A stretch of DNA of 64,000 nt, from NCBI RefSeq assembly GCF_014651635.1, contig NZ_BMXG01000018.1, positions 1-64,000 on the forward strand, given 5' to 3'. This stretch comes from Cerasicoccus arenae. Lineage in GTDB: Bacteria > Verrucomicrobiota > Verrucomicrobiia > Opitutales > Cerasicoccaceae. The notes beneath the pieces were generated by a model. That model saw nothing but the letters and a program-made list of their open reading frames with translations. It was not told the DNA's origin and searched no databases. Shown piece after piece: positions 3,444 to 62,647 of this stretch (position 1 is its first letter; each line of letters begins with the position of its first letter). The position numbers and the translations under genes are program-made.

Positions 3444-3851
3444 GATCATTGTATAGTTTGTTGGATTGAGAATTTTTCCGCTAGATAACCGGAGTTTCTG
3501 AGAGGAACATCCAAAAGCACCAAACGTGCCAATTTCCATAAATTCACTGCACACTCCCTTCCTATATTATTTCGTTCATCGATAAATCCATGAACTGAAT
3601 TAGCTAGAATCGATGAAACCAATTCATTCAATACTCTTCTTGGCACAGCAAACCTGCCGCAATGAACTGTCTCAAATGCGCAACAGTGATTACGTCAGAA
3701 GCCAAATTTGATCACATGGCACTAAAAGGACATCGACGTAATAAGTGACCACTGCGGGAAGAATATGCGTAATTTTTGCCATAAGTCTTAAACTAATATA
3801 CCTAGCGCAATAAATCTTGACAAAAAGATACTTTGCGGCGAGATTTGTAAT
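3444..3851. other. Intergenic control region between amtB and pirin genes
   Basis: About 400 nt separate two divergently read genes. No gene is evident. It should contain the amtB promoter, not identified with confidence, and the pirin promoter at 3817-3845. Confidence 0.5.
3817..3845 (+). promoter_or_regulatory. Candidate leaderless promoter for pirin gene
   Basis: A perfect TTGACA (3817-3822) begins exactly 35 nt before the ATG at 3852. The position expected for a -10 box (3840-3845, GAGATT) is poor. If transcription starts at the ATG, the mRNA would be leaderless. The same spacing recurs at 60921 and 61818. Confidence 0.4.
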
Positions 3852-4544
3852 ATGATTGAAAAACGCCCATCCAATGACCGAGGTTCAACGAATATTGATT
3901 GGCTAGATAGCCGTCATAGCTTTAGTTTTGGCCAGTACCATGACGCTTCACGCCAAAGCCACGGTGCACTGCGTGTGATCAATGATGATCGAGTCGCCGC
4001 CCTACAAGGATTCGGGACTCATCCGCATCGCAATGCTGAAATAGTGAGCTATGTGCTCTCCGGTGCGCTCGAGCATCGTGACAGCATGGGAAATGGCAAC
4101 GTCATCAAGCCGGGCCAATTTCAGTATATGAGCGCGGGTCGTGGAGTAACACACAGCGAATTCAACCCAAACGACGAAACGTCTCATTTCCTGCAAATCT
4201 GGCTATTGCCAAATGAGGAAAATGCAGAACCTGCTTATGCCCAGTCAGATATTGCACAAATAGAGCCAAAAAACGGGCTCCAATTAATTGCCTCTAATAT
4301 TGATCCAGCGGCCCCCATCCAATGGCGGACCGACGCGACTCTATGGCGAGGCAGCTATACGATCGGAGACTCAGGAGAATTGCCTGGCAACGGCGACCGT
4401 GGCTATCTTCACGTAATAAAAGGCAAACTTCAATTGGGCGAGATCTCACTAAGCGAAGGCGACGCTGCTGCCATCAGCAATGAAAGCAGCAGCTTGAATC
4501 TCGTCGGTCTGGAGGATTCAGAATTCCTATGGTTCAGCTTATAA
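3852..4544 (+). CDS. Pirin family protein (bicupin)
   Basis: Cupin-fold pirin of 230 residues, related to E. coli YhhW, which has quercetinase activity; the physiological substrate is unknown in most members. The N-terminal cupin shows the metal-binding pattern FGTHPHRNAEIVSYVLSGALEHRDSMG, with His-x-His and downstream His/Glu ligands, followed by YMSAGRGVTHSE, a strong pirin signature. The C-terminal cupin is less conserved, as usual. It stands alone and ends immediately against the convergent autokinase gene, with no gap between stop codons. Confidence 0.88.
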   Translation: MIEKRPSNDRGSTNIDWLDSRHSFSFGQYHDASRQSHGALRVINDDRVAALQGFGTHPHRNAEIVSYVLSGALEHRDSMGNGNVIKPGQFQYMSAGRGVTHSEFNPNDETSHFLQIWLLPNEENAEPAYAQSDIAQIEPKNGLQLIASNIDPAAPIQWRTDATLWRGSYTIGDSGELPGNGDRGYLHVIKGKLQLGEISLSEGDAAAISNESSSLNLVGLEDSEFLWFSL

Positions 4545-21986: not shown

Positions 21987-22769
21987 CTACCGTGCACGCA
22001 GCGTGAACTGCTCACACTTCGTGGCGATACGTTGTTCGACATCTATCTCGACCAAAGTTCCACAGAGGCGCACATCGTTGCTAGCTACCGGCCACATGCG
22101 AGGCAGGCCATCAAGGAATTTTAAAAGGATCGGCTGGATTTCGCGGCCCAAAATACTCTCGTAAGGGCCACACATGCCAGCGTCCGTATGGTAGGCCGTG
22201 CCACGTGGCAAAATGGTCGCATCGCCCGTTGGAATGTGCGTGTGCGTGCCAACGACCATCTGGGCGCGCCCGTCCATGTACCAACCAAAGGCGACTTTTT
22301 CCGAGGTCGTTTCAGCGTGGATTTCAGCAAGAATCGCGTCACACTGCGGATGAAGCTCGCCAATCATATGGTCAGCCGTGCGAAACGGGCAGTCGGCCTG
22401 TGTCTTCATGAATGTGCGGCCCAACACCGTGAAAACGCCCAGCTTGAAGCCGTTCTTCTTCAGAATCAGATACGTGCGACCTGGATTTTCGGCGGGGAGA
22501 TTGGCTGGGCGACAAACGCTGGCCAATGTGCCGATTTCGTCAGTAAATCCGCGTTGATCCCACACATGATCGCCCAAAGTCACGCCATCAATGTCGGCAT
22601 CGAACAGCTCACCTGCAATGGCTCCGGTGATGCCTGAACCAGCGGCGGAATTTTCCCCATTGGCCACGACGAAGTCGAGTTGCAGCTCCTCGCGGAGCAC
22701 TTTTACCTGAGCTTTGACGAACTCGCGTCCGGGCTTGCCGACGATGTCGCCTAAAAATAATACACGCAT
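21987..22769 (-). CDS. YmdB-family metallophosphoesterase
   Basis: TIGR00282/YmdB family phosphodiesterase of 260 residues; B. subtilis YmdB hydrolyses 2',3'-cyclic nucleotides. Metal-site motifs are visible: RVLFLGDIVGKPGRE, VVANGENSA, TLGDHVWD, EIHAETTSEK and VGTHTHIPTGD. The canonical Asn of the GNH motif is replaced by Asp (GDH), seen here and worth checking against relatives. The ATG at 22769 gives the standard MRVLFLGDIVG start; an upstream start at 22784 would read through a palindrome (22771-22788). It stands alone. Confidence 0.85.
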   Translation of the reverse strand: MRVLFLGDIVGKPGREFVKAQVKVLREELQLDFVVANGENSAAGSGITGAIAGELFDADIDGVTLGDHVWDQRGFTDEIGTLASVCRPANLPAENPGRTYLILKKNGFKLGVFTVLGRTFMKTQADCPFRTADHMIGELHPQCDAILAEIHAETTSEKVAFGWYMDGRAQMVVGTHTHIPTGDATILPRGTAYHTDAGMCGPYESILGREIQPILLKFLDGLPRMWPVASNDVRLCGTLVEIDVEQRIATKCEQFTLRAR

Positions 22770-22784
22770 TCCCCATGCACGCAT

Positions 22785-23125
22785 GGGGAGGTTAAAGTTT
22801 AAAGGTTAAAGTTTAAAGCATCGGCATGCTGACGTGACTCAGGGCCATTTTGCAGAACTGAATCATATTGGTAATACCCATTGCTTGAATCAACGTAGTC
22901 TCTATCCCCCCATATCTAGACTACTTTAACCTTTAATCTTTAGACTTTAACCTTCTCCCCCCCTCCCCCTTATTGCGGGTGTATAAATATCCTTGCCCGT
23001 TCAGTAGAGGCACTCTAACTTTCCGCGCCCTTGACCCCCTGTGTCCCTTTTCAGGGTTGCCTTTGTGGAGAAATCCGCGAGCGTGGAGGGTTTCGCATCA
23101 ACATAAACTAAAACACCATCGAACC
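22785..23125. other. Upstream region of acetolactate synthase gene
   Basis: 340 nt between divergently read genes. It contains the inverted repeat above and a C7-T-C5 pyrimidine block at 22957-22969. I looked for a leader peptide rich in branched-chain codons and did not find one. Confidence 0.4.
22790..22952. repeat. 29-nt imperfect inverted repeat flanking 105 nt
   Basis: The arm at 22790-22818 is itself a tandem of GGTTAAAGTTTAAA. The arm at 22924-22952 is its imperfect reverse complement. The enclosed 105 nt hold no gene. The element lies between the phosphodiesterase gene and the acetolactate synthase gene. Confidence 0.55.
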
Positions 23126-60865: not shown

Positions 60866-60900
60866 AAAGCCCCAGCCATTCTTGGCTGGGGCTTTTTGTT
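60866..60900 (+). terminator. Terminator after rpsA
   Basis: A perfect 12-bp stem (60866-60877 with 60884-60895) with a 6-nt loop and a T-rich tail. Confidence 0.9.
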
Positions 60901-60920: not shown

Positions 60921-60949
60921 TTGACTTAGTCTCAGATCTCCATTCAATT
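60921..60949 (+). promoter_or_regulatory. Candidate leaderless promoter for PEP-CTERM gene
   Basis: TTGACT (60921-60926), a 17-nt spacer and TCAATT (60944-60949). The -35 box starts exactly 35 nt before the ATG at 60956. Confidence 0.45.
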
Positions 60950-60955
60950 AAAGCC

Positions 60956-61747
60956 ATGAATTTTCCTACCCTTGCTACGATCGCCTTGAGCTTAGGCATG
61001 ATCTCCAGCGCAACCGCAACCGTCATCGTATTTGACGATTTTGGCTCAGCTGCAGGAAGCAGCGACTTGCCCGGCCGCACTCCAGTAGTCACCCCCGGCA
61101 ACAATTGGACTGGCTACACCAGCGGATCGAACGTTGGCTGGAAGGTCATTGACGGTGATGCTGTTTTCGGCACCTCCTCAACAGTTAACGGCATGGCTGG
61201 CATTGAGCTCGGCAGTGATTATTTCGTCAACAATCCCGCGATCTACAGCTTAAAATCCACGATTTCGATGACTCCAGACGGCGGCAGCGACCTATGGTAC
61301 GGCATTGGTTACTCCAATTTCATTAGCACTGGCCAAAATCGCGGGTTTTATGCAGTAGGAGAAGCGAATGAGGGTAAACCTTGGATGTTCATGCGTCAAA
61401 ACGGAGAGCTGAACGTCCGCGTTGCTGGCGCGACCACAGTCTATTCTGACACTGGCTACGATGTGTCAAATTTTGAAATAGAATTGGTGCTCGATACATC
61501 AGTCGCCAACTGGACGGTCGATGCATATATTAATGGAGCACAACTAGACCTCAATGGCGTGTCTATCGGCATGTCATACACCTACGTAAACAACCCAACC
61601 CTGGCTGCCATTGGCCTATCCGCCCCAGACGGTGTCGTTGGCAGTGTTGAGTCTATTACCCTGCAAACCATTCCCGAGCCGCACACCTATGCGCTTATCC
61701 TTGGTGCCGCATGCCTGATCGGCCTCATCGCACGTCGACGTCGCTGA
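60956..61747 (+). CDS. PEP-CTERM protein, tandem paralogue 1
   Basis: 263-residue secreted protein. Signal peptide, then a beta-rich body starting VIVFDDFGSAAGSSDLPGRTPV, resembling a lectin-like jelly-roll (LELVLDTSVANWTVDAYINGAQLDL), and the sorting signal IPEPHTYALILGAACLIGLIA-RRRR. The next gene is its close paralogue. The proline-glutamate-proline motif carries His where Ser or Gln is usual. Confidence 0.85.
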   Translation: MNFPTLATIALSLGMISSATATVIVFDDFGSAAGSSDLPGRTPVVTPGNNWTGYTSGSNVGWKVIDGDAVFGTSSTVNGMAGIELGSDYFVNNPAIYSLKSTISMTPDGGSDLWYGIGYSNFISTGQNRGFYAVGEANEGKPWMFMRQNGELNVRVAGATTVYSDTGYDVSNFEIELVLDTSVANWTVDAYINGAQLDLNGVSIGMSYTYVNNPTLAAIGLSAPDGVVGSVESITLQTIPEPHTYALILGAACLIGLIARRRR

Positions 61748-61817
61748 TTTTTTAAATCCGCTCACGATCAAAAATCGAGGAGTAACGGACTCCAAGGCCA
61801 CTCACTTAGTTAAGCAT

Positions 61818-61846
61818 TTGACAAAAACGCTATTTGAATCAATTAT
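61818..61846 (+). promoter_or_regulatory. Candidate leaderless promoter for second PEP-CTERM gene
   Basis: A perfect TTGACA (61818-61823), a 17-nt spacer and AATTAT (61841-61846); TATAGAT at 61844 is an alternative. The -35 box starts exactly 35 nt before the ATG at 61853. Confidence 0.5.
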
Positions 61847-61852
61847 AGATGC

Positions 61853-62647
61853 ATGCGTTTCATTGCCCCATTACTCGCGCTCTGCTTGTTGCCTACGTTC
61901 CCCGACATTGGCGCAAGCGTCATTGTTTTCGATGATTTTGGCCCATCCGGCACCAACTCCGCCTTATCAGGCCGCACACCAGTAACCTCACCCGGCAACG
62001 ACTGGATTGGCTACAGCAGCGGCACAAGTTTCGGCTGGCAAGTATCCGATGGCGAGGCCCAGTATGGCAGTTCTTCCGTGCAAAATGGCATGGCTGGCAT
62101 ATTGCTGAGCGCCAACTATTTCGCAGACAATCCGAATGTCTACAGCCTTAAGTCCACGATGTCCATGACCGACATCGACGCCACCACTTGGTATGGCGTT
62201 GGCTTCAGCGAAAGCATCGGGACCGTTCCTGATAGAGGTTTCTATATTGCTGGCCCAACCGAAGGAAGGCCTTGGATATTTGCCCGCAACAATGGTGAGT
62301 TGAATGTACGAGCTGGCGGTGCCACAGGCTCAACCATTTATTCTCAAACGGGCAAGGATTTCAGTAGCTTCGAAATGGAATTGGTGCTCGATACTTCGGT
62401 CGCCAACTGGACCGTTGACGCCTTTTTCAATGGCGTGCAGTTGGACCTCAACGGTGGAAGCATTGGCATGACCTACACCTACTCCACCAATCCATCCAGC
62501 CTTGGTGCGATCGGGTTTTCTTCATCCGCCAATGCCCAAGGAACCATCCAATCCATTACGTTGGAAACCATTCCCGAGCCGCAAACCTACGCGATCATCC
62601 TTGGTGCCGTCTGCCTCGTTGGCCTCATCGCACGTCGCCGTCGTTAA
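61853..62647 (+). CDS. PEP-CTERM protein, tandem paralogue 2
   Basis: 264-residue paralogue of the preceding gene: VIVFDDFGPSGTNSALSGRTPV, ELNVRAGGATG, ELVLDTSVANWTVDAFFNG, and IPEPQTYAIILGAVCLVGLIARRRR. The bodies match closely along their length, showing a recent tandem duplication, while upstream sequences differ except for the promoter box. Role probably cell-surface or matrix; an exosortase must be encoded elsewhere. Confidence 0.85.
   Translation: MRFIAPLLALCLLPTFPDIGASVIVFDDFGPSGTNSALSGRTPVTSPGNDWIGYSSGTSFGWQVSDGEAQYGSSSVQNGMAGILLSANYFADNPNVYSLKSTMSMTDIDATTWYGVGFSESIGTVPDRGFYIAGPTEGRPWIFARNNGELNVRAGGATGSTIYSQTGKDFSSFEMELVLDTSVANWTVDAFFNGVQLDLNGGSIGMTYTYSTNPSSLGAIGFSSSANAQGTIQSITLETIPEPQTYAIILGAVCLVGLIARRRR

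Follow-up and report, generated by a model that had tools for sequence, protein, structure and literature searches.

A −35-like box set 35 nt before start codons suggests leaderless transcripts for a class of genes in a bacterial genome most likely of the Verrucomicrobiota

Three genes of the window share a box-to-start distance

The window (the whole stretch of DNA analysed here, 64,000 nt) carries three genes whose ATG codons, at 3852, 60956 and 61853, had been noted in a preliminary description for a TTGAC-type box exactly 35 nt upstream. All three boxes are present with identical spacing, two of the genes being paralogues. The elements of the two loci, all on the forward strand, are the following:

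3817..3822, +, TTGACA, −35-like box, first base 35 nt before ATG 3852
3840..3845, +, GAGATT, candidate −10 hexamer at a 17-nt spacer, weak (3/6 matches)
3852..4544, +, pirin / quercetinase-like cupin gene (PF02678, PF17954), predicted leaderless
60866..60895, +, intrinsic-terminator-like hairpin after an rpsA-like gene, 13-pair stem and T-rich tail
60921..60926, +, TTGACT, −35-like box, first base 35 nt before ATG 60956
60944..60949, +, TTCAAT, −10-like at a 17-nt spacer (4/6 matches; not listed by the promoter scan, whose rule it fails)
60956..61747, +, PEP-CTERM protein gene (PF07589), predicted leaderless
61818..61823, +, TTGACA, −35-like box, first base 35 nt before ATG 61853
61841..61846, +, AATTAT, −10-like at a 17-nt spacer (10/12 consensus matches including the −35 box)
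61853..62647, +, second PEP-CTERM protein gene (PF07589), paralogue of the gene at 60956, predicted leaderless

The start of the pirin gene at ATG 3852 is supported by its homologues, most of which, among the matches listed, align from residue 1 or 2. A hexamer better than GAGATT, TGTAAT, lies at 3846-3851, directly before this ATG. The PEP-CTERM tandem (60956-62647) sits directly after a gene with S1 domains (rpsA-like), and the hairpin that separates them is the strongest among the nine terminator-like sites listed (5.2 expected); if active, it would confine the next promoter to the ~60 nt that follow it. Given that the two PEP-CTERM genes are adjacent paralogues (63% identical), the three examples are not three independent draws. 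For the box at 61818 the predicted +1 is 61853, 7 nt past the last base of AATTAT.

A consensus promoter scan returned four promoter-like sites in the 5-kb stretch holding 61818 (3.1 in shuffles) and three in the stretch around 3817 (3.3 in shuffles), where the pair at 3817 was not reported. TTGAC as such matches 141 times in the window against 126.7 expected, a count reached by 10 of 100 shuffles; what is enriched is its position relative to start codons and not its frequency. No Shine-Dalgarno (SD) core stands upstream of any of the three genes (0/3), and the scarcity of SD sequences that had been remarked upon is borne out by the window as a whole, GGAG, GAGG or AGGA occurring in SD position in 2 of the 49 called genes with 200 nt upstream.

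A positional peak at 35 nt before genes likely to need their own promoter

From the genome to which the window belongs (G000; 4,128,508 bases in 63 contigs), stretches totalling 1.264 Mb were sampled. Genes and their starts were called with a simple home-made codon-pair model that makes no use of upstream signals, yielding 973 genes. We refer to a gene as first-like if it has a divergent neighbour at a distance of at least 40 nt or a same-strand neighbour at a distance of at least 80 nt, with 200 nt of upstream sequence; 608 genes fell into this class and 237 were operon-internal. The first sample consisted of 800 kb plus the window (681 genes, 685 after retraining), and contigs C3 and C7 (400 kb) served as a hold-out, for which the tested position was fixed beforehand; training of the coding model drew on every G000 piece. 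Expected box counts at 35-37 nt were derived from positions 41-150, and P values are Poisson probabilities.

TTGAC begins 35-37 nt before the start codon in 21 of the 608 first-like genes, against 2.81 expected (P = 3.6e-12). The excess is found in the first sample with the window removed (11 in 381 first-like genes vs 1.61; P = 1.1e-6) and in the hold-out (5 in 187 genes vs 0.98; P = 0.0034). Among 41,480 tests combining every 5-mer with a 3-nt window, TTGAC at 35 nt came out on top, and TTGCC, TTGCG and GCTTG near 35-37 nt likewise rank high. The peak is present both for genes called at their 5'-most possible start (274) and for those called at other starts (334).

The controls behave differently. 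Operon-internal genes lack the peak (1 box in 237 genes vs 0.74 expected), as do 3847 internal in-frame ATGs (7, 5 and 0 boxes at 35, 36 and 37 nt vs a mean of 3.83 per position) and the first-like genes in 300 kb of Escherichia coli K-12 processed with the same pipeline (0 in 162 genes vs 0.3). The 244 not-first-like genes of the first sample show 3 boxes at 35-37 nt vs 0.76 (P = 0.04). The histogram of box-to-start distances that the preliminary description had envisaged, drawn here over ~31% of the genome, accordingly climbs steeply at 35 nt, a rise that neither operon-internal genes nor internal ATGs nor E. coli display.

Two other counts were set aside. Searches of the raw pattern that ignore gene starts, namely TTGACA-N29-ATG over the whole genome (27 vs 17 for a backward control) or the same over 31 spacings (551 vs 280), were discarded as too noisy. 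A depletion of boxes closer than 34 nt amounts to 2 vs 7.5 at 20-33 nt, yet to 11 vs 12.5 at 10-33 nt; these figures vary with the background used and are therefore not counted as evidence.

The share of genes concerned can be bracketed by two measures. At 34-39 nt, the surplus of any TTG is equivalent to 69 of the 608 first-like genes (11.4%), and that of the stricter TTG[AC]C to 41 (6.8%), while the any-TTG excess in the 237 operon-internal genes is −0.6. On these grounds leaderless starts are a well supported prediction for roughly 7-11% of first-like genes. The earlier suggestion that leaderless transcripts may be common in this organism thus finds support in the sequence statistics, provided that common is understood as that fraction and not as a majority. 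Within 130 nt of start codons, a proportion of ~0.37 of the TTGAC-type promoters would be in the leaderless position (bootstrap 0.24-0.59), a value that is estimable for G000 only and is meaningless for E. coli and for the related genome G004 introduced below. At 40-130 nt the first-like genes carry an excess of 43.5 TTGAC boxes, indicating that many promoters lie further out.

Promoter anatomy and the start codon context

When the 33 TTGAC boxes that first-like and intermediate genes carry at 34-39 nt are aligned and positions are counted from the first T, T reaches 58% at position 29 and A/T 81% at position 28; the 61 boxes located at 42-90 nt behave similarly, with T at 44% at position 29. 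This A/T enrichment falls where a −10 hexamer separated from the box by 17 nt would end. In sigma-70 promoters the +1 usually lies 7 nt beyond the −10 element, so that, for a box at 35, a 17-nt spacer followed by 7 nt makes the A of the ATG the expected +1.

The −10 element itself is weak. The two-box pattern TTGAC-N16-19-TANNNT-N5-8-ATG matched three ATGs in 864 kb and none of the called starts, and a canonical −10 is therefore not claimed. TA at 12 nt is not enriched in genes with TTG[AC]C at 34-38 nt (4% vs 7%). An expectation-maximisation search for a two-box motif gave a weak peak with the −35 box at 35-39 nt and the first base of the −10 at 12-15 nt, together with artefact peaks at the start codon. 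With a −10 this weak, the leaderless status of individual genes remains a prediction.

SD cores precede 22 of the 608 first-like genes of the window genome (4%; background 5%) and are weakly raised before operon-internal genes (28 of 237, 12%; background 6%). The same pipeline recovered them in E. coli K-12 before 58 of 162 first-like genes (36%; background 7%) and 28 of 57 internal genes (background 2%). C at −1 is found in 50-55% of the boxed sets and in ~40% elsewhere, internal genes included; being frequent in internal genes too, it is alone no evidence for a start site. As a more general feature of start codons in the G000 sample, A occupies +4 in 39-55% and C occupies −1 in ~40%, first-like and internal genes being alike in this respect; this context is unrelated to SD pairing.

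Related genomes and homologues

The peak recurs in G004, which represents another genus of the family (400 kb; 6 boxes in 214 first-like genes vs 0.87, P = 0.0003; internal genes, 1 in 50 vs 0.05). It is absent from the small samples of the congener G002 (200 kb; 1 in 78 first-like genes vs 0.44) and of G040 from another family (0 in 102 vs 0.38). Two further small and GC-rich samples gave 2 boxes in 92 genes vs 0.16 (G043; P = 0.012, with 1 in 24 internal genes) and 1 in 105 vs 0.41 (G005). The trait is thus shown for the window genome and G004, the remaining samples being too small to decide. The any-TTG excess at 34-39 nt is 20.7 of 214 genes in G004, 3.3 of 162 in E. coli, 0 of 78 in G002 and 2.9 of 102 in G040.

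The boxes of the window were followed in homologues of the genes concerned. Of 24 pirin loci, three that aligned only beyond residue 25 and two without a placeable ATG were dropped, leaving 19 with our own. Five of these have TTGAC within 150 nt: at 35 nt in the window, at 33, 34 and 35 nt in L143, L147 and L146, and only at 113 and 150 nt in L156; the other 14 placeable copies have none, one relative (L141) showing TTTAC at 35 nt. For the PEP-CTERM genes, 29 loci were reduced to 10 including our own by removing 18 with no usable hit or with an alignment past residue 25 and one without a placeable ATG. Four of the 10 placeable copies carry TTGAC, at 35, 35, 36 and 35 nt, and six do not. The first PEP-CTERM gene has 12 matches in G001 and 13 in G002; in three of these matches the TTGAC box lies at 35-36 nt. 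In the box-bearing homologues of both families, the box-to-ATG length is kept while the intervening sequence has diverged.

No 16S gene was found in the assembly of the window genome. Of 36 genomes searched, three, all relatives, have a 16S locus, and the target of probe EUB338-III, which is assigned to the Verrucomicrobia, was present in all three loci (two of them on the reverse strand as stored), making Verrucomicrobiota the most likely phylum; an Opitutae-like position within it is no more than a guess based on PEP-CTERM genes and genome sizes. PMC5446981 connects EubII and EubIII with Planctomycetales and Verrucomicrobiales, giving the order both ways. The congener G002 retains an intact CCTCC 16S tail; the other two 16S loci are partly masked, the tail not being visible. 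An association of leaderless starts with loss of bS21 was considered and dropped, bS21 being present in 53 of 54 genomes.

A reciprocal divergent gene pair

A further locus of the window genome, on contig C6, consists of two divergent genes:

C6 77412-78425, −, 2-hydroxyacid dehydrogenase gene (PF02826)
C6 78455-79138, +, divergent partner gene, no Pfam or NCBIfam hit

Only 29 nt separate the two (locus L036, 17412-19138). Both begin with ATGTCAA, the complement of which, TTGACAT, provides the candidate −35 box of the partner, 36 nt from the partner's ATG. The second gene occurs in nine of 54 genomes (own included), eight of this family and, as the ninth, G043; two of the 10 family genomes lack it. 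The reciprocal arrangement is kept in all eight family genomes with the locus, with a gap of 29 nt in seven and 30 nt in one, and TTGACAT, TTTAAT and TGTCAA are invariant among them, one start codon being TTG. It is absent from the 75 nt examined at the G043 homologue (32% identity).

In our sample, 12 of 138 serine second codons are TCA, and TCAA follows the start codon in three of 972 genes, two of which are the C6 pair. The rarity of TCA and TCAA after starts suggests that the DNA letters, and not only the serine, are conserved at this locus. No other single locus, in our view, argues as strongly for leaderless starts as this pair, although the letters might equally be preserved as part of a symmetric operator. 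The notion that such mirror-image TTGACAT/ATGTCAA promoters might be widespread was rejected, as the exact pattern occurs once in the genome and, of the 104 divergent pairs in the first sample, one has its genes less than 40 nt apart. The bare mirror pattern is found in 18 of 54 genomes and a backward control in eight of 54, so that only the homologous C6 locus is meaningful.

Interpretation and alternative explanations

The explanation that we find probable is that sigma-70-type promoters are set such that the +1 falls on the A of the start codon or 0-2 nt upstream of it. The −35-like box peaks sharply 35-37 nt ahead of the start codon in genes that require a promoter of their own, and not in operon-internal ones, and the position of this promoter would place the transcription start at the start codon. 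The three window genes, along with roughly a tenth of first-in-transcript genes, would then be leaderless. As is the case for known leaderless mRNAs, ribosomes, probably as 70S particles with initiator tRNA, would start on the 5'-terminal AUG without SD pairing.

A considerably less likely reading accepts TTGAC as a genuine −35 box and supposes that the −10 is displaced or that the true start codon lies downstream, resulting in ordinary short leaders of ~5-30 nt with a later start or SD-independent translation of leadered messages. The weakness of the −10 speaks for it, as do TGTAAT immediately upstream of the pirin ATG and the many first-like genes whose promoters lie further out (the excess of 43.5 at 40-130 nt), yet it does not explain why box counts should climb so abruptly at 35 nt from the called start. 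The alignment of most listed pirin homologues from residue 1 or 2 and the spacing of 33-36 nt in homologues with a box near the gene also argue against it. Chance combined with one gene duplication would account for the coincidence in the window, where the two PEP-CTERM genes are neighbouring paralogues, and would fit the modest genome-wide count of TTGACA-N29-ATG (27 vs 17); we consider it extremely improbable, as it is contradicted by the start-aware statistics, the hold-out, the other genus and the negative controls.

Alternatively, TTGAC may be a regulator site or part of an operator, in which case its spacing would be silent on the transcription start. An imperfect palindrome, ATCTTGACAAAAAGAT, lies over the pirin −35 box (3814..3829, +), and two relatives (L146 and L147) have ATCTTGACATCAAGAT, with perfect 7-nt arms; the palindrome at 3814-3829 is a possible MarR-type operator. 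Matches to this pattern with up to three mismatches are at chance in the window (3 vs 2.69 expected). In PMC6798810 the quinone-responsive operator of MhqR is given as TATCTCGAA-aTCGAaATA, of which ATCTTGACATCAAGAT is reminiscent, a likeness that would fit a quercetinase-like gene. The resemblance of the palindrome to MhqR-type operators and the mirror-image TTGACAT boxes of the C6 pair lend the operator explanation some weight, but it remains very unlikely as a general one: the peak pools many different first-like genes, it includes TTGCC and TTGCG variants, and A/T-rich positions occur at −10 distance. An operator overlapping a −35 box would, moreover, be compatible with leaderless transcription.

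Relation to known leaderless systems

Leaderless starts are a known, under-studied phenomenon that has been mapped in Akkermansia and is here extended with a signature led by the −35 box and not by TA. In a Cappable-seq study of mouse gut (PMC4782308), leaderless start sites make up 10% in Akkermansia muciniphila and 0.4% in E. coli. The window genome resembles A. muciniphila in phylum (as judged from the 16S signature of its relatives), in the presence of −35 and −10 signals and in the proportion (~10% there, 7-11% here), with the reservation that the former is a share of start sites from mapped 5' ends whereas ours is a share of first-like genes from sequence statistics. The window genome departs from Akkermansia in combining a clear TTGAC box with a −10 that is weak.

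Zheng et al. 2011 (PMC3160421) predicted such genes across a wide range of bacteria; the leaderless genes termed TA-led, in Actinobacteria, Deinococcus-Thermus and others, have TANNNT ~12 nt before the start and no SD. The same source reports leaderless genes in one of 37 Bacteroidetes/Chlorobi genomes, and the word Verrucomicrobi- does not occur in its main text. Our candidates are like TA-led genes in that the promoter abuts the start codon and the SD is absent; unlike them, they have their positional signal in the −35 box and show no TANNNT signal at 10-12 nt, but only an A/T bias at the end of the −10. SD-scarce species with a conserved CCUCC include Bacteroidota and Akkermansia (PMC10783764). 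The window genome is similar to these in that its first-like genes have SD cores at background level and its congener G002 keeps CCTCC, and differs from them in the small SD excess of its internal genes (12% vs 6%) and in its predicted leaderless class.

Bacterial bidirectional promoters, according to PMC10268837, have symmetric overlapping −10 elements and start sites 7-25 bp apart. At the C6 pair a single short stretch would likewise drive two divergent genes, with start sites 29-31 bp apart if both are leaderless and, in distinction to these promoters, with each −35 overlapping the start codon of the partner. Among the matches listed for literature on verrucomicrobial start-site maps and overlapping divergent promoters, no report of such a reciprocal start-codon/−35 pair was found. 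Whether the lineage has compacted promoters and start codons, making leaderless genes a regular class and ATGTCAA at C6 a start codon, second codon and partner −35 box at once, all locked by a family-conserved spacer of 29-30 bp, is a question on which we are evenly divided. The 29-bp pair is a natural and conserved test case, in that a leader longer than a few bases would need another promoter inside the neighbouring gene.

In genomes of this kind, programs that depend on SD motifs or assume a 5' leader when predicting genes will put start codons in the wrong place. Such genomes could show how ribosomes whose anti-SD is intact select starts in promoter-proximal genes that lack both an SD and a leader. 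As a separate observation on sequences abutting start codons in the window, a tandem double copy of CTTTAAACTTTAACC lies at 22790-22818 (−), directly upstream of the ATG of the gene at 21987-22784.
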